Positions 10,653-16,129 of a stretch of DNA of 64,000 nt are shown here, one piece after another; position 1 is the first letter of the stretch; every line of letters begins with the position of its first letter. The position numbers were made by a program, and so were the translations under genes. This stretch comes from Allotamlana fucoidanivorans (lineage in GTDB: Bacteria > Bacteroidota > Bacteroidia > Flavobacteriales > Flavobacteriaceae). Location of the stretch: the NCBI RefSeq assembly GCF_006265225.1, contig NZ_VDCS01000011.1:1-64000 (forward strand), in the 5' to 3' direction. The notes below the pieces were generated by a model. The model worked only from the letters and a program-made list of their open reading frames with translations. It had not been told where the DNA came from and did not search any database.

Positions 10653-10738
10653 TATATACCTCTGTTTTTTTACTTCAAACTTTTGCTCTGTTCATTTTTC
10701 AAAGTAACTTTACCCCATATTAATTAAAGCAACGAGAA

Positions 10739-11656
10739 GTCAGTACTCCAACTAAATATCTCATTTCTGTTATTGGCCCAACCGCCATAGGAAAAACAGC
10801 ACTTAGCATTGAGCTTGCAAAACACTTTCATACGGACATTATTTCGACAGATTCCCGACAATTTTTCAAAGACATGCAAATTGGTACAGCAGCACCAAGT
10901 CCAGATGAATTAGCCGCTGTCCAGCACCATTTTATACATCATAAATCAATAACAGAGCATTATAATGTTGGCGCTTTTGAACGAGATGCTTTAACGTGTT
11001 TAGAACACCTCTTTAAAAAGAAAGACGCCGTAATTATGGTTGGTGGCTCTGGTTTGTATGTTGATGCCGTTACCAAAGGATTTGATCATTTTCCTGATGT
11101 TGATCCTAGCATTCGTGAATCATTAAATCATACTTTAAAAACTAAAGGACTAGGCGATTTACAAAATCAATTAAGAACATTAGACCTGACTTCTTACAAC
11201 ACCATTGCTGTTGACAATCCGCATCGGGTCATTAGAGCTTTGGAAATCTGTATAGGAACCCAAAAACCTTATTCTAGTTTTTTAAATCAAGGAAAATCAC
11301 AACGTCCCTTTAAAACGATAAGTATTGGCCTCATGGCAGATAGGACTATAATTTATGAAAGAATCAATCAACGTGTAAATAGTATGATTGATGAAGGCTT
11401 AATTGACGAGGTAAAATCACTTTTACCGTATAAACACCTTAACGCTTTGAATACGGTGGGCTACAAAGAAATTTTTAAATACCTAGAAGGCGAATGGGAT
11501 TTAGATTTTGCTATTTCAGAAATTAAGAAAAATACGCGAAGATTTGCTAAACGCCAACTTACTTGGTTTAAGAAAGATTCAAAAACGCTATGGTTTGATT
11601 ATCAAACACCTGTACAAACTATAGTTGAAGCTATTTCTGAACAGATGCACGTGTAA
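10739..11656 (+). CDS. miaA: tRNA dimethylallyltransferase MiaA (start codon not evident)
   Basis: MiaA adds the dimethylallyl group to adenosine 37 of tRNAs that read UNN codons. The frame that holds KYLISVIGPTAIGKTALSIE (P-loop GPTAIGKT), DIISTDSRQFF, FIHH, MVGGSGLYVDAV and RQLTWFKKD is open from 10724 to the stop at 11656, so the enzyme core looks complete. The frame has no ATG, GTG or TTG before the ATG at 10874, which lies after the P-loop and would leave an inactive protein. Family homology begins near 10739. ATT at 10763 is the first near-cognate start. Either a rare start codon is used, or the start was lost when the adjacent repeat or its flank changed. Confidence 0.85.
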   Translation, partial: VSTPTKYLISVIGPTAIGKTALSIELAKHFHTDIISTDSRQFFKDMQIGTAAPSPDELAAVQHHFIHHKSITEHYNVGAFERDALTCLEHLFKKKDAVIMVGGSGLYVDAVTKGFDHFPDVDPSIRESLNHTLKTKGLGDLQNQLRTLDLTSYNTIAVDNPHRVIRALEICIGTQKPYSSFLNQGKSQRPFKTISIGLMADRTIIYERINQRVNSMIDEGLIDEVKSLLPYKHLNALNTVGYKEIFKYLEGEWDLDFAISEIKKNTRRFAKRQLTWFKKDSKTLWFDYQTPVQTIVEAISEQMHV

Positions 11657-11657
11657 A

Positions 11658-13133
11658 TTATTGCATGGTTACTGTACTGTACTTGGCATTAACAACAATA
11701 CTTTTACCACTAGCTAAATTCCCTGTTGAAAAATTTGACACCTGTTCATTAGGTGATTTTTTGGGATGCGAAAACCTTGATTTTGTGCCATTGTATTGTA
11801 CATTACAATCTACATCAGGTAAATTAATGACCACATCACTGTTTTGAAGAATCATATTTAGGCTGCTAAACTTGTCATCTATATTTAGAATTTTCAAATC
11901 TCCAATAGTCCCATCTATAACAGCACTTTTTAAAAGGTGATTCACATCTACATTTGATGAAGTAGCATTCAACACAAGATGATTGGCATAATCTATTTGT
12001 GCTTTCTTCACATATTTTAAGTTCAATTGTCCCACATGCCAGGTACTTACATATACAGGAGAATAGGAAGCATTAATGGAAGTTAAACTTCCATCAATGC
12101 TTTGCGCTTTAAACTTAGTATACGCTAAATCTGCTCTTAAATTATCAATATTAGCAGCAAACTCTATTTCTCCATGCTTCACATCTACCTTGAGTTTTGT
12201 TCCTTTTGGCATTTTTATTTTTATTGTTTTTTTAACCTTACCATGCGCTTTACCATGTACCAACTCTTCTATACGCTTTTCACGTTCTTTTAATAGAATA
12301 ACGCGTTCCTTTTGGTGATGCTTTAATTCTTCCTGCCGTCTTTTTACCTGAGTTTTTATTGCCTCTGCACGCTCTTTATGTACCTGATTGCGTGCTTCAT
12401 GCGCAATGATTCGCTCTTGATGCGCCTCCATGTTCTCGGCATAACGTTCCCCCCATTCTTCCATTTTTTTATTAAACTCTTCCTCATTCCAGCGTTCTTC
12501 AAACGTTTCACTCCATGCTTGCATCTTTTTTGCAAATGCCTCTCCATAGGCTTCTTCAAATTTCTTTGAATAAGCTTCAAGATATTTTTCACCTTCTTTT
12601 TTGTAAGCATTATAATCAAAAGTTACTGCCCCAACGCCCTCAGGTAAAGGCGGTAATGGTGGTAACTCAGGAATTTCTGGAATCTCAGGTACTTCTGGGA
12701 CTTCAACGTGTACATCGAAATCTATTTCTGGAATTTCTGCCAACTCATATTTTAATTCCTTTATTACGGCTTCAACCGCTTCACCATCACCATGCGTATC
12801 TGTTCTATACACCCAAACATTTGTACCACGTCCTTGTGTTCCAATAGTAACTTTATCCGTTGTTGCATCTATATCTATTTTCCATGATTTTAGTGCATCA
12901 TCCAGTTCTTCTTCACTAAGCTGCTCACCTTCAATATAGGCTTCAATTTCCACAACGTCTTTCTTCCAAGTATCAAAAACAATATTACAATGACTGGTAT
13001 TTAAATTAATATTAACATCACTGTTCACTTTTATTGCCTGAGACACTTTTATGAGTTTCTGTTGTGCCATAACGCCAGTTGCGGTCAACAAACTCAAAGT
13101 GAATACCAAAGATTTTATAATTATTCTGTTCAT
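11658..13133 (-). CDS. Exported coiled-coil protein of the ECF sigma operon
   Basis: A 491-residue exported protein I cannot name. Residues 1-24 are a signal peptide. Residues 27-165 are beta-rich and end in a proline-rich run (EVPEVPEIPEIPELPPLPPL, about 145-164). Residues 175-296 are an almost continuous, highly charged helix with repeated aromatic/charged heptads (EAYSKKFEEAYGEAFAKKM, QAWSETFEERWNEEE) and a His/Arg/Lys-rich end, probably a coiled coil. Residues 303-491 are a beta-helix-like region resembling the DUF4097 putative adhesin family, with short SIDGSLTSINASYS-type strands. It is last in an operon with a sigma factor and an anti-sigma-like protein, so it is likely an output or sensor of that system at the envelope. 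Confidence 0.75.
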   Translation of the reverse strand: MNRIIIKSLVFTLSLLTATGVMAQQKLIKVSQAIKVNSDVNINLNTSHCNIVFDTWKKDVVEIEAYIEGEQLSEEELDDALKSWKIDIDATTDKVTIGTQGRGTNVWVYRTDTHGDGEAVEAVIKELKYELAEIPEIDFDVHVEVPEVPEIPEIPELPPLPPLPEGVGAVTFDYNAYKKEGEKYLEAYSKKFEEAYGEAFAKKMQAWSETFEERWNEEEFNKKMEEWGERYAENMEAHQERIIAHEARNQVHKERAEAIKTQVKRRQEELKHHQKERVILLKEREKRIEELVHGKAHGKVKKTIKIKMPKGTKLKVDVKHGEIEFAANIDNLRADLAYTKFKAQSIDGSLTSINASYSPVYVSTWHVGQLNLKYVKKAQIDYANHLVLNATSSNVDVNHLLKSAVIDGTIGDLKILNIDDKFSSLNMILQNSDVVINLPDVDCNVQYNGTKSRFSHPKKSPNEQVSNFSTGNLASGKSIVVNAKYSTVTMQ

Positions 13134-13144
13134 TTTTTGATTTT

Positions 13145-13720
13145 TTAAATGGATTGTTTTTCTGCATTTATGTTTTCGGAAACGTTAAATTGTTCTAACT
13201 GCGATCGTAACCGATACAACAGGTTTAAACGCAGTTTTAAATTATCTATTAAGGCATTAACAGTCAACTCACTGAGACCCGATTCAGTTAACTCTAATGA
13301 AAGCTTTTGGTAATCTTCATCAAGCGTGGCTATTTGCTCCAAATAACCATCAAATAACTCCTTAGTTTCTGGGGTGTAACTCATCTTAGATAATTCTAAG
13401 TTGATACTTGCCAAATAGTAGTCTTCTACTTTTTTTAGTCCAGGAGAAATGTCTCCTAGAGTTTTGGTAGCAATCACTTTTTTGGAGTTATCTACATTAA
13501 CAGGTTCTATCTGGGACGGACTTAAAAAACGATAAGTTCCAAACGAAAGTCCTAAAAACACCACCACGCTAGCGGCCACTTTCATCCAACTTATACCTGT
13601 TCTTGAACTTACGGGCAAGGCTATATCTAATTTCTTTTGAAAACGGTTTTGATGATTCTTAGGCATCGTTTCATTTGACATTTTATCATCCTTGAATAAA
13701 TCTCTAATATCTTGTGCCAT
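13145..13720 (-). CDS. Putative anti-sigma factor, single-pass membrane protein
   Basis: The 191-residue protein has a short cytoplasmic N-terminus (1-43, with LFKDDKMSNETMPKNHQ), one transmembrane segment at about 45-66 and an extracytoplasmic helical domain rich in Leu/Glu (75-180). Its gene overlaps the sigma factor gene by 17 bases and is the second gene of the operon, which is the usual place for the membrane anti-sigma factor of an ECF system. No zinc-binding HxxxCxxC motif is present, so it is not a ZAS-type anti-sigma. The role is inferred from position and topology. Confidence 0.7.
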   Translation of the reverse strand: MAQDIRDLFKDDKMSNETMPKNHQNRFQKKLDIALPVSSRTGISWMKVAASVVVFLGLSFGTYRFLSPSQIEPVNVDNSKKVIATKTLGDISPGLKKVEDYYLASINLELSKMSYTPETKELFDGYLEQIATLDEDYQKLSLELTESGLSELTVNALIDNLKLRLNLLYRLRSQLEQFNVSENINAEKQSI

Positions 13721-14255
13721 TTTGCTTTTGTATTAATAGTTCCTGTAATTTTGCCTTACCTCTTGATAGTTGTGTTCTTGATGCTACCTCAGTGATATCA
13801 AGGATTTCAGAAATCTCTTGGTGGTCATACCCCTCAATTAAATAGAGCATCACCACGTATTGATATTTATTTGGTAACTTATTAATAGCCACTTTAACAT
13901 CTGTAAGGGTAATAGTGTCATCTACCAACCATTTGTCGTCTTTTTGAGTATCAACCACTTTAAGGTGCACCTCATCCAAAGCCACTAGCTGCTGTTTTTT
14001 AGATTTTAAAAAGTCGATACTCTTATTAACAACAATACGTTTTAACCACGCGCCAAAAGTAACGTCTCCTTTATACTGATGTAATTTTGTAAAGGCCTTT
14101 ATGAAGGCCTCTTGTACCACATCTTCAGCATCAGCAGCGTCTTTTAAAAACCGTTTAGCTACAATATACATGCCATCGCAGTACTGGCTGTACAACTGCA
14201 TTTGAGCTTTCCGATTGTTCTGTTTACATTGTTCTATAATGTCAACTTGAAACAT
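13704..14255 (-). CDS. ECF (sigma-70 family) RNA polymerase sigma factor
   Basis: This 183-residue protein carries sigma region 2 (about 25-90: YIVAKRFLKDAADAEDVVQE, FIKAFTKL, GDVTFGAWLKRIVVNKSIDF) and region 4 (about 125-175: KLPNKYQYVVMLYLIEGYDH, QEISEILDITEVASRTQLSR), with no regions 1 or 3, as in extracytoplasmic-function sigma factors. Region 4 contains the helix-turn-helix that reads the -35 box. It heads an operon with an anti-sigma-like membrane protein and an exported coiled-coil protein. A matching ECF-type promoter lies 40-65 bases upstream, which suggests autoregulation. Confidence 0.95.
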   Translation of the reverse strand: MFQVDIIEQCKQNNRKAQMQLYSQYCDGMYIVAKRFLKDAADAEDVVQEAFIKAFTKLHQYKGDVTFGAWLKRIVVNKSIDFLKSKKQQLVALDEVHLKVVDTQKDDKWLVDDTITLTDVKVAINKLPNKYQYVVMLYLIEGYDHQEISEILDITEVASRTQLSRGKAKLQELLIQKQNGTRY

Positions 14256-14292
14256 ACTGATGTTACTTCTGGTTTGTGTTAGTTCATATTAA

Positions 14293-14320
14293 AGACGATA
14301 AAAAAAATGGGGTGTTGCAA
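14293..14320 (-). promoter_or_regulatory. Candidate ECF-type promoter of the sigma operon
   Basis: On the minus strand, TTGCAAC (14320-14314) and CGTCT (14297-14293) are separated by 16 bases. An AAC-containing -35 box and a CGTC -10 box at this spacing are characteristic of ECF-controlled promoters. No good TAnnTTTG promoter is seen for this operon. The predicted transcript would start about 30 bases before the ATG of the sigma gene. Confidence 0.55.
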
Positions 14321-14381: not shown

Positions 14382-14389
14382 TAGTTTTG
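14382..14389 (+). promoter_or_regulatory. -7 box for the DUF2911 gene
   Basis: TAGTTTTG matches TAnnTTTG exactly. It lies about 40 bases before the ATG at 14429 and overlaps a more upstream possible start at 14387, which argues that the upstream start is not used. Confidence 0.5.
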
Positions 14390-14428
14390 CCTTTTAAATT
14401 ATCTTTACGTCTCAAAAAAATTGCTCAT

Positions 14429-14983
14429 ATGAACGCCTTCTTAAAACGAACCTTAATTCTTTTGTCTATCATCGCATTGGGGTTATTTTTATATTCTGTA
14501 TTTGTTGAAAACATTTTTTCACCGCGATTAAGTCCGAAAGACACCGTTGAATTCAAATTAAACGATTTAAAACTTGAAGTTTTCTATAATAGGCCTTACA
14601 AAAAAGGAAGAGAAATTTTTGGAGCGCTAGTACCTTACAATCAGGTATGGCGTACTGGAGCAAATGAGGCTACCACTTTTGAAACCAACCAAACACTTGA
14701 TGTTAAAGGTATGCCGTTAACCCCTGGAAAATATACTTTATGGACGGTTCCTAAAGATTCTGCTTGGACCGTAATTTTTAATTCGAAACAGTATAAATGG
14801 GGCGTTAATGCGCAAATGCAACCTATGTGGGATCCTAACTACGATGTTATTAATGTGGATGTTCCCGTGGAAAAACTTGCTAATCCCGTAGAGCAGTTCA
14901 CCATTAGTTTTGATAATTCAACCGATAATTTATTTTTAACCATGGCTTGGGATGATGTTAAAATAGCCGTTCCGCTTCAATAA
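14429..14983 (+). CDS. DUF2911 domain protein, membrane-anchored
   Basis: From the ATG at 14429 the product has 184 residues: an N-terminal transmembrane anchor or uncleaved signal (RTLILLSIIALGLFLYSVF) and a DUF2911 domain with the hallmarks FYNRPYKKGREIFGALVPY, QVWRTGANEATTFET, GMPLTPGKYTLWTVP and WTVIFN. The fold is a beta-sandwich of unknown function, common in Bacteroidota. An in-frame start at 14387 would add 14 residues but lies in the promoter. The gene is divergent from the ECF operon and followed after 70 bases by meaB. Confidence 0.85.
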   Translation: MNAFLKRTLILLSIIALGLFLYSVFVENIFSPRLSPKDTVEFKLNDLKLEVFYNRPYKKGREIFGALVPYNQVWRTGANEATTFETNQTLDVKGMPLTPGKYTLWTVPKDSAWTVIFNSKQYKWGVNAQMQPMWDPNYDVINVDVPVEKLANPVEQFTISFDNSTDNLFLTMAWDDVKIAVPLQ

Positions 14984-15052
14984 CTATTTTTAGCATCCTC
15001 TGGTAATCCCTTGCAAGAATATTGTAAATTTAAGCAACTAATTATCTGAGAA

Positions 15053-16129
15053 TTGACGAAAGAAAAGAAATCGGCATTACAAGAAAAAGGAGGTGTTTCA
15101 ATTTCAGAAATCACCAACAGAAAGTCTATTGAAAACCTTAAACAAAAACGTAAAGTAAAACTTGACGCTAAAACCCTTTTAACCGATATTCTTCAAGGAG
15201 ATGTTGCAGCGCTTAGCAGAGGGATTACCTTAGTTGAGAGCGTAAACAGTAAACATATAGCAATTGGAAACAAGCTTCTAAAAACCTGCCTTCCATATGC
15301 TAACAAATCTATACGCATTGGTATTACGGGTGTTCCCGGTGTAGGTAAAAGTACATTCATTGAGGCTTTTGGAAAGCATTTAACGTCACAAGGAAAACGT
15401 GTGGCAGTTTTGGCTATTGACCCAACAAGTTCCATTACAAAAGGTAGTATTCTGGGGGATAAAACCCGAATGGAAGCACTTGTTAAAGATGAAAATGCTT
15501 TTATCAGACCTTCTCCCTCGGGGCATTCGCTTGGCGGTGTTGCCAGAAAAACCAGAGAATCTATTGTGCTATGTGAAGCCGCTGGTTTTGATATCATTAT
15601 CATAGAAACGGTTGGTGTGGGGCAAAGCGAAACTACCGTACATAGCATGGTTGATTTCTTTCTACTTTTAAAATTATCTGGGGCTGGTGATGAACTACAG
15701 GGTATTAAACGGGGTATAATTGAAATGGCCGATGCTATAGTGATTAATAAAGCTGATGGCGATAATGAAAAAAAGGCAAAGTTTGCCGCAAATGAATTCT
15801 CTAGAGCTTTGAAACTTTATCCTGAAAAAGAGTCTAAATGGTCTCCTAAAGTATCGGTTTGCAGTGCATTAAACCATGTTGGCATAACCCTTATCTGGAG
15901 CATGATAACAGATTATATATGTGTAACCACAAAAAACGGTCACTTTGATATAAAACGACAAAAGCAAAATAAATTCTGGCTGATTCAAACTATAGAATCC
16001 CAACTTAAATCAGATTTTTTTAATCAACCAAAAATTAAAAAAGCACTAGAATCTCAGCTTATTTTAATAGAAAACAACCATACCACCCCCTTTGCGGCTG
16101 CTGAGTTTTTACTAAAATTAAAAGCTTAA
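15053..16129 (+). CDS. meaB: Methylmalonyl-CoA mutase-associated GTPase MeaB
   Basis: MeaB is a G3E-family GTPase that protects and reloads the B12-dependent methylmalonyl-CoA mutase. Residues 88-101 hold the P-loop ITGVPGVGKSTF; AVLAIDPTSS, GSILGDKTRM, FIRPSPSGHSLGGVARKTRE and IETVGVGQSE are family signatures, and INKADGD is the base-specificity motif. The 358 residues fit the family. The start is a TTG (15053) giving MTKEKKSALQEKGG; there is no in-frame ATG upstream. The mutase genes are not in the window. It ends convergently with a four-base overlap onto the PAP2 phosphatase gene. Confidence 0.94.
   Translation: MTKEKKSALQEKGGVSISEITNRKSIENLKQKRKVKLDAKTLLTDILQGDVAALSRGITLVESVNSKHIAIGNKLLKTCLPYANKSIRIGITGVPGVGKSTFIEAFGKHLTSQGKRVAVLAIDPTSSITKGSILGDKTRMEALVKDENAFIRPSPSGHSLGGVARKTRESIVLCEAAGFDIIIIETVGVGQSETTVHSMVDFFLLLKLSGAGDELQGIKRGIIEMADAIVINKADGDNEKKAKFAANEFSRALKLYPEKESKWSPKVSVCSALNHVGITLIWSMITDYICVTTKNGHFDIKRQKQNKFWLIQTIESQLKSDFFNQPKIKKALESQLILIENNHTTPFAAAEFLLKLKA

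Follow-up and report, generated by a model that had tools for sequence, protein, structure and literature searches.

A conserved extracytoplasmic function sigma factor operon of Flavobacteriaceae encodes an exported protein with a predicted Toastrack domain split by a charged helical arm

Results

One conserved operon encodes an ECF sigma factor, a candidate anti-sigma factor and an exported protein

The subject of this study is an operon in a window of 64,000 nucleotides from Allotamlana fucoidanivorans (Flavobacteriaceae; contig NZ_VDCS01000011.1, positions 1 to 64,000 of the forward strand); all coordinates refer to this whole stretch. Three open reading frames (ORFs), all on the minus strand, encode an extracytoplasmic function (ECF) sigma factor, a single-pass membrane protein that is a candidate anti-sigma factor, and an exported protein (hereafter the third protein), and together they make up a single operon that is conserved along with the ECF-type promoter in front of it. 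A preliminary description of the sequence had placed three tightly spaced genes here, and the ORFs agree with it: the sigma and membrane-protein genes overlap by 17 bp, an overlap that is identical in 76 of the 79 measurable relatives, and 11 bp separate the stop codon of the membrane-protein gene from the third gene. The elements of the operon are as follows.

14320-14293, minus strand: ECF-type promoter TTGCAAC-N16-CGTCT (fixed spacer in relatives)
14255-13704, minus strand: ECF sigma factor, 183 aa (Pfam PF04542 and PF08281, TIGR02937)
13720-13145, minus strand: membrane anti-sigma candidate, 191 aa (position, conservation and AlphaFold2 model)
13133-11658, minus strand: exported protein with predicted Toastrack domain and inserted arm, 491 aa (sequence, AlphaFold2 model and structural alignment)

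The first product matches the Pfam families Sigma70_r2 (PF04542, 2.6e-16) and Sigma70_r4_2 (PF08281, 2.7e-13), both above cutoff, and the sigma70-ECF family TIGR02937 (2.9e-26). The presence of sigma-70 regions 2 and 4 in a short protein bears out the ECF identity first given to it. We scanned contigs with the third protein and kept the best 80 of 136 relatives; these loci belong to Flavobacteriaceae genera or to metagenome-assembled genomes labelled Flavobacteriaceae, Flavobacteriales, Bacteroidia or Bacteroidetes, and with the window they make 81 members. The anti-sigma candidate and sigma genes lie directly upstream of the third gene in 80/80 loci (in L084 the sigma gene is cut by the contig end), a count that shows the partners of the third gene and not the reverse, the loci having been found through that gene. 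A sample of 199 Flavobacteriaceae genomes, one per genus, is less biased than loci fetched in this way. The third protein (E ≤ 1e-5) and the anti-sigma candidate (E ≤ 7.3e-40, a cut chosen after seeing a gap in the matches) were both found in 126 of the 199 genomes and neither was found in 73, with no discordant genome. Thirty-one further genomes had only weaker anti-sigma matches (1.1e-25 or worse), which are probably paralogues. The genes are thus conserved together, as had been supposed. Our search of the open-access literature on ECF and anti-sigma factors, Bacteroidetes/Flavobacteriaceae, DUF4097, LiaX and Toastrack found no account of this operon among the papers listed.

The third protein is predicted to contain one Toastrack domain interrupted by a linker and an arm

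The preliminary description had suggested predicting the structure of the third protein. The resulting AlphaFold2 model (81-row alignment; mean predicted local distance difference test score, pLDDT, 83.7; predicted template modelling score, pTM, 0.59) gives a split Toastrack β-helix with a helical arm: a signal helix, strands over residues 25-99, a stretch of low confidence at about 103-145, helices over 174-295 and a β-helix over 300-490.

13065-13133, minus strand: signal peptide, about residues 1-23 (..GVMA/QQ; sequence, AxA-like site)
12837-13061, minus strand: first part of the predicted Toastrack domain, residues 25-99 (AlphaFold2 strands, pLDDT 85-95 over 31-100; structural alignment)
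12615-12836, minus strand: Pro/Glu-rich linker, partly disordered by prediction, residues 100-173 (pLDDT 41-53 for residues 101-150)
12249-12614, minus strand: charged helical arm, residues 174-295 (AlphaFold2 helices 174-180, 182-196, 198-214 and 217-295, the last continuous)
12207-12233, minus strand: invariant KKTIKIKMP strand directly after the arm, residues 301-309 (longest invariant run in the 81 members)
11661-12236, minus strand: second part of the predicted Toastrack domain, β-helix, residues 300-491 (AlphaFold2 pLDDT 82-98 by block)

The export signal, the Pro-rich stretch and the charged helix listed in the preliminary description are all present. An AxA-like site precedes Q/E in 78 of the 81 members and a lipobox is found in one; linker residues 100-171 average 13% Pro, 21% D+E and 5% K+R over the members. 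The same description had spoken of several β domains, and here the model points elsewhere. The top Foldseek matches were 4qrk (probability 0.99, E 2.5e-3) and 3pet (0.99, 2.7e-2), none falling below 0.001. Realignment of the Foldseek list with VIA-align gave Z 18.4 for 3lyc (223 residues aligned, root-mean-square deviation, rmsd, 3.3, model range about 23-491), 17.7 for 3ljy, 17.5 for 4opw (219 aligned, rmsd 3.4), 17.4 for 3jx8 and 13.5 for 4qrk (156 aligned, rmsd 2.4), compared to Z 10 and below for lyase-type β-helices. 4QRK and 4OPW are named as Toastrack structures in the sections of PMC11237479 available to us, which treat the Toastrack proteins (DUF4097/DUF2807/DUF2154); the fold predicted here is that of these two structures and of related putative adhesins. 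Because Toastrack structures align across residues of about 23-491, the model indicates that both β parts are one Toastrack (DUF4097-type) domain split by the linker and the arm. The sequence points the same way, as shorter relatives match the profile at about 1-115 and then about 310-433 within one protein of about 360 residues. The earlier statement that such a protein has no described function was too strong, since the same sections of PMC11237479 describe the Toastrack family and propose that it acts in stress-signalling complexes.

At the level of family profiles, PF13349 matches two of the 81 close relatives (best 4.5e-10) and, among more distant Toastrack relatives, L125 (1.6e-5, above cutoff), and does not match five others scanned alongside. 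DUF2884 matches 18 of the 81 members (best 1.2e-6); of seven inspected, one (L081) matched, below cutoff and within the arm, and we took this identity as low complexity and rejected it. The available part of PMC11237479 mentions DUF2884 beside Toastrack genes. The window protein showed no match to a C-terminal sorting domain of the type IX secretion system (T9SS) in NCBIfam or Pfam up to E 1. As a separate observation, the Toastrack model aligns over 218 residues (Z 14.7) with 7muc_AM, one of the chains in the C1 reconstruction of Legionella Dot/Icm, which would place a Toastrack-like fold in a secretion machine.

The arm is rich in charges and carries a 19-residue repeat

The arm varies from 112 to 192 residues among the members, and charged residues (E, K, R, D) make up 49% of it on average and 45% in the window protein. 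Over the 81 members, pairs of opposite charge exceed expectation at i,i+4 (z 18.2), with lesser excesses at i,i+3 and i,i+1 (z 11.2 and 7.6) and a deficit at i,i+2 (z -8.7). Single α-helix (SAH) domains are described as rich in R, E and K and stabilised by salt bridges (PMC5347031, in the part available to us). The arm resembles them in its E/K/R-rich composition and its surplus of opposite-charge pairs at i,i+4 and i,i+3, so that by its residues the charge spacing is SAH-like; it differs in that its first half bears a regular aromatic 19-residue repeat, which is absent from the SAH description in that part of PMC5347031.

Hydrophobic residues in the arm showed a periodicity that peaked at 94 degrees over the 81 members (power 7.8, compared to a shuffled maximum of 1.2). 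The signal is a property of the family average, and in the window protein alone it did not reach significance (peak 5.9 against a shuffled 95% value of 6.5, p 0.08). It is carried by the first half (11.4), while the second half has a weak peak at 100 degrees (2.4). Of 146 pairs of successive M-x-x-W motifs in the 81 members, 91 have a spacing of 19 residues, and 19 residues per five turns correspond to 94.7 degrees. A left-handed heptad coiled coil was rejected, the power being 1.2 at 103 degrees and the peak not near 102.9, and the 'coiled-coil' of the preliminary description does not hold in the heptad sense. We also considered an amphipathic, apolipoprotein-like arm. Apolipoprotein A-I gave a weak sequence match in the PDB (residues 163-292, E 0.011), and one of the 81 members matched a Pfam apolipoprotein family. 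Lipid-binding amphipathic helices have a period of roughly 98-100 degrees, and because the arm's 94-degree period differs from this, the matches were treated as composition and a lipid-binding arm was considered unlikely.

The stripe could have another use. Since it advances by 94 degrees per residue in the first half, it winds around the helix and could pack helices together, and the recurrent M-x-x-W spacing fits such packing; the arm would then be a right-handed oligomerising coiled coil that clusters Toastrack domains, its function being clustering and not reach. We regard this as very unlikely, given that nothing appears at the heptad angle, that the second half has only its weak 100-degree peak and that the i,i+4 charge pairs resemble a monomeric SAH. 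That the third protein spans or senses the envelope gap is possible. In a further reading the arm is a molecular ruler: the count of 19-residue repeats would set the length of a rod that bridges the gap from the inner-membrane anti-sigma factor to the peptidoglycan or outer membrane, the operon being a one-product homeostat of envelope spacing that fires only for more rod when spacing or attachment changes. We consider this reading highly improbable.

The membrane protein is a candidate anti-sigma factor without a zinc motif

In the AlphaFold2 model of the second product (mean pLDDT 76.9), a short N-terminal segment, which includes a helix at 21-34, precedes a long hydrophobic helix at 44-65 and three confident helices, with pLDDT of 86-97 for residues 91-180.

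13640-13654, minus strand: H-x-x-R-F motif in the presumed cytoplasmic segment, residues 23-27 (81/81 members; H23, R26 and F27 invariant)
13526-13591, minus strand: predicted transmembrane helix, residues 44-65 (AlphaFold2 helix, hydrophobic sequence)
13154-13459, minus strand: predicted periplasmic three-helix domain, residues 88-189 (AlphaFold2 helices 93-112, 120-147 and 151-189)

Residues Y101, Y102, N107, Y137, N160 and R164 of the predicted periplasmic domain are invariant. The zinc motif HxxxCxxC of zinc-binding anti-sigma factors occurs in 0/81 members, none of which has a Cys in its first 45 residues, and with one predicted transmembrane helix the protein fits its earlier description as membrane-bound, anti-sigma-like and lacking that motif. 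No Pfam family matched the window protein at 0.01, and its model had no Foldseek match at E ≤ 0.001; its VIA-align list held generic helical bundles only, the best a designed protein (Z 10.5), and identified no known fold. We also considered a CnrX/CnrY-like reading as a possibility. Its gene position beside the ECF sigma gene in all 80 loci, the short N-terminal segment and the single predicted transmembrane helix make it a candidate anti-sigma factor, for which we infer an orientation with the N terminus inside.

The promoter is conserved at a fixed spacing

The TTGCAAC-N16-CGTCT promoter proposed in the preliminary description is present 37 bp before the sigma start codon. We compared 78 upstream regions, from the window and 77 of the 80 loci (L084 and L085 were too short and L113 had no called start). 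TGCAAC-N15..19-CGTC was found in 71 of the 78 and the originally proposed form with a spacer of 14-19 in 56. G(C/T)(A/C)ACA-N12..16-NCGTC matched 77 of the 78, always with a spacer of 14 although 12-16 was allowed (the exception is L100), which shows the position of the promoter to be conserved in relatives. Columns that the pattern leaves free were constrained too: in the close relatives there were 2.0 bits at the TT two bases after CGTC and 1.4-1.8 bits at T-runs inside the spacer and ahead of the -35 box, compared to less than 0.5 farther upstream of the box.

The operon was present in 78 of 120 genus-level genomes, 77 of which were examined for the promoter (in G048 the contig was too short). 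The strict pattern, TTGCAACAN{13,15}TCGTC, matched 43 of the 77 and the relaxed G(C/T)(A/C)ACA-N12..16-NCGTC a further 14, which gives 57/77. The relaxed pattern was applied to the 34 non-strict genomes, where all 14 matches had the 14-base spacer and the reversed-text control matched 0/34. Another 14 genomes have GCAACG or GAAACA with the same spacer, a variant that was noticed post hoc, and six have little or no promoter at the site. By these sequences, the -35 box drifts in more distant genomes. The fixed spacing and the constrained columns support a functional ECF promoter under selection. ECF operons are usually autoregulated, and on this ground the operon's own sigma factor likely drives the TTGCAAC-N16-CGTCT promoter. 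The promoter resembles the SM6 promoters of Flavobacterium psychrophilum, which in the available text of PMC9723704 have a CGT-containing -10 box, are ascribed to ECF sigma factors and include one upstream of an ECF/anti-sigma pair; it differs in that SM6 covers many genes, T9SS parts among them, whereas the motif here is longer and has no excess away from the operon.

Armless sister operons share the gene pairing

The same genome carries, on contig C107 (L143, 3131-5334), a second ECF/anti-sigma/Toastrack operon, the Toastrack protein of which has 362 aa and no arm. We examined 27 loci (L120-L146), made up of the best-match loci of a relatives search and four picked by hand. The sigma gene lies beside the Toastrack gene in 24 of the 27, and the anti-sigma gene as well, by profile, in 21. 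Two loci (L120 and L121) are arm-like; the other 25 (L122-L146) have no 60-residue stretch that is more than 45% charged, compared to 53-57% in three arm-type references. Among these armless loci a sigma gene adjoins in 22/25 and an anti-sigma gene as well, by profile, in 19/25; L133, L137 and L140 have neither beside the Toastrack gene. The gene order sigma/anti-sigma/Toastrack is retained in the armless sister operons. In a tree of sigma factors the 18 arm-type sequences (the window, 15 of the 80 loci, L120 and L121) form one clade adjoining the armless sets, with support of 0.97 as read after midpoint rooting. Two loci deserve separate mention. The third-gene homologue of L121 (G283:C8:106227-107225) has an in-frame TAA inside the match and is a possible pseudogene, and the Toastrack relative of L126 (minus strand, 1483-2832) has a helix-like charged stretch before the domain and not inside it, which recalls the order of parts in LiaX of Enterococcus.

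The motif search reveals no wider regulon

The search of genomes for the motif that the preliminary description had envisaged as a way to the regulon yielded no excess outside the operon. In the own genome, TTGCAACN{14,19}CGTCT had three sites compared to two for the reversed pattern, the TTGCAAC-type motif alone thus not exceeding chance, and the operon was the sole match to TTGCAACAN{13,15}TCGTC, with one control match. Across 120 genomes the latter pattern had 74 sites, 43 at the operon and 31 elsewhere (one of them, G088, doubtful), compared to 36 control matches; GCAACAN{14,15}CGTCTT had 45 sites in 60 genomes, 19 at the operon and 26 elsewhere by hand count, compared to 35. Controls were the reversed patterns, and sites were split by hand matching to anti-sigma positions. 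A wider regulon recognisable by these motifs was therefore rejected, neither pattern exceeding its control away from the operon, with divergent sites beyond the reach of the patterns. The simplest reading of these sequences is that the main conserved target of the sigma factor is its own operon, and since no other promoter stands above chance, the main output of the circuit is probably the Toastrack protein itself.

This result can be read in more than one way. We tentatively favour, with confidence just short of even, a self-contained, probably autoregulated envelope-signalling operon in which the Toastrack protein would keep the anti-sigma factor inhibiting while its arm engages the envelope. 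In the main rival, the third protein is an effector only: the sigma/anti-sigma pair would sense stress by itself, by means of regulated proteolysis and its bundle of periplasmic helices, and the Toastrack protein with its arm would be no more than the induced product, serving as scaffold or shield to prop up or patch the envelope. With no other promoter target above control, the output that suggests itself is the third protein; were it the sole output, strict co-occurrence would follow. The arm is also rod-like. We nevertheless judge the effector-only reading somewhat unlikely, because the pairing with sigma and anti-sigma genes is kept in the armless sister operons and is thus independent of the arm, and because LiaX and LiaF act as inhibitors of signalling in the available part of PMC10269926.

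Neighbouring genes

Around the operon the window genes scanned with Pfam were miaA, an ion channel, DUF2911 and MeaB. In the 73 loci with full flanks the upstream neighbours are often kept (DUF2911 in 69, MeaB in 66) and the downstream side less so (miaA in 22), and general synteny may account for part of the operon linkage. The DUF2911 and MeaB genes (14387-16129) are divergent from the operon, for which a functional link or plain synteny are both possible. The listed MiaA ORF begins downstream of the P-loop; the frame upstream of 10874 (10724-10873) encodes the expected P-loop GPTAIGKT and has no ATG, GTG or TTG from the preceding stop to the P-loop, which could reflect a rare start codon, loss of the start or a fault in the assembly. 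No LiaF/LiaS/LiaR two-component genes were found in the operon or among the scanned neighbours, to which this search was confined.

Discussion

The operon is real and well conserved, and a known fold explains part of it; what is new is the split domain with its repeat-bearing arm, and its ECF setting. The order rpoE-rseA-rseB or algU-mucA-mucB likewise gives a sigma factor, a single-pass anti-sigma factor and an exported third gene product. These systems differ from ours in the fold of the third product, which has a LolA/LolB-like N-terminal domain there and a predicted Toastrack fold here, and in that no wider regulon is seen here by motif search; no RseB/MucB or RseA family appeared among the Pfam matches of the window proteins up to E 1. 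As far as the available text of PMC7400510 goes, MucB/RseB attach to the periplasmic part of the anti-sigma factor and shield it, and lipid releases it.

A second likeness is to LiaX of Enterococcus, a surface protein in which sensing falls to a helical part and the inhibition of an envelope-stress regulator to a PF13349 β part; in the part of PMC10269926 available to us, the α-helical part binds antimicrobials and the PF13349 part inhibits signalling. The third protein likewise joins a helical part and a Toastrack part in one exported protein, with the parts in a different order: the helical part of LiaX is a separate N-terminal domain, whereas the arm here is inserted inside the domain. LiaX acts on LiaF/LiaS of a two-component system, whereas the partner genes here are those of an ECF sigma and an anti-sigma factor (same source). 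Toastrack proteins have been tied to stress signalling, including an operonically linked sigma factor, and predicted to be intracellular, whereas the domain here follows a signal peptide; in the sections of PMC11237479 available to us we met neither a Toastrack domain split by a helical arm nor an ECF/anti-sigma/exported-Toastrack triad.

Borrowing from LiaX (PMC10269926) and MucB/RseB (PMC7400510), we propose the following working model. At rest the Toastrack core would dock on the periplasmic helical domain of the anti-sigma factor and hold it in a sigma-sequestering state, as RseB/MucB do for RseA/MucA. The arm, which at full extension would form a rod measuring at most about 18 nm (0.15 nm for each of 122 residues), would engage an envelope partner. 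Damage would draw the Toastrack protein away, the anti-sigma factor would let go and the sigma factor would fire the operon; newly made Toastrack protein would then refill the pool and reset the switch. The operon linkage, the co-occurrence, the fixed-spacer promoter, the lack of any motif excess outside the operon, the single predicted Toastrack domain, the armless sister operons and the LiaX and MucB/RseB analogues are in line with this model.

Several points weigh against it. The contact between the anti-sigma factor and the Toastrack protein is a proposal drawn from the analogues, and the partner of the arm is hypothetical. The third protein of the window has no Pfam Toastrack match, and the pTM leaves the placement of the arm uncertain. 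A third protein that is only an effector would lead one to expect perfect co-occurrence just as much, and the empty regulon search, the patterns of which used the window-type -35 box that drifts in other genomes, suits an effector no worse than a sensor; these two results do not separate brake from effector. Nor does the genetic and structural evidence tell whether the interaction is negative or positive. The exported protein could be a ligand-binding, positive signal carrier without which the anti-sigma factor is not pulled off, in which case loss of the third gene would leave the system blind and not constitutively on. This is distinctly unlikely in our view, as the analogues LiaX (PMC10269926) and RseB/MucB (PMC7400510) are negative regulators in the portions of these papers available to us.

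For the Flavobacteriaceae, the third-protein family would be a candidate extracytoplasmic partner in 126 of the 199 sampled genera. ECF circuits are abundant in Bacteroidota, and to our knowledge the extracytoplasmic partner that instructs a Bacteroidota ECF anti-sigma factor is rarely known. The predicted domain would also connect ECF signalling in a group with two membranes to a fold, Toastrack, that belongs to envelope-stress systems of Gram-positive bacteria, and the exported third protein, together with LiaX, makes a case against the prediction of intracellular Toastrack proteins in the available sections of PMC11237479. The armed and armless sets in one genome offer a natural comparison, and if the arm is indeed a spacer or a sensor, the operon would provide a system of simple genetics in which to ask how a cell measures its envelope.

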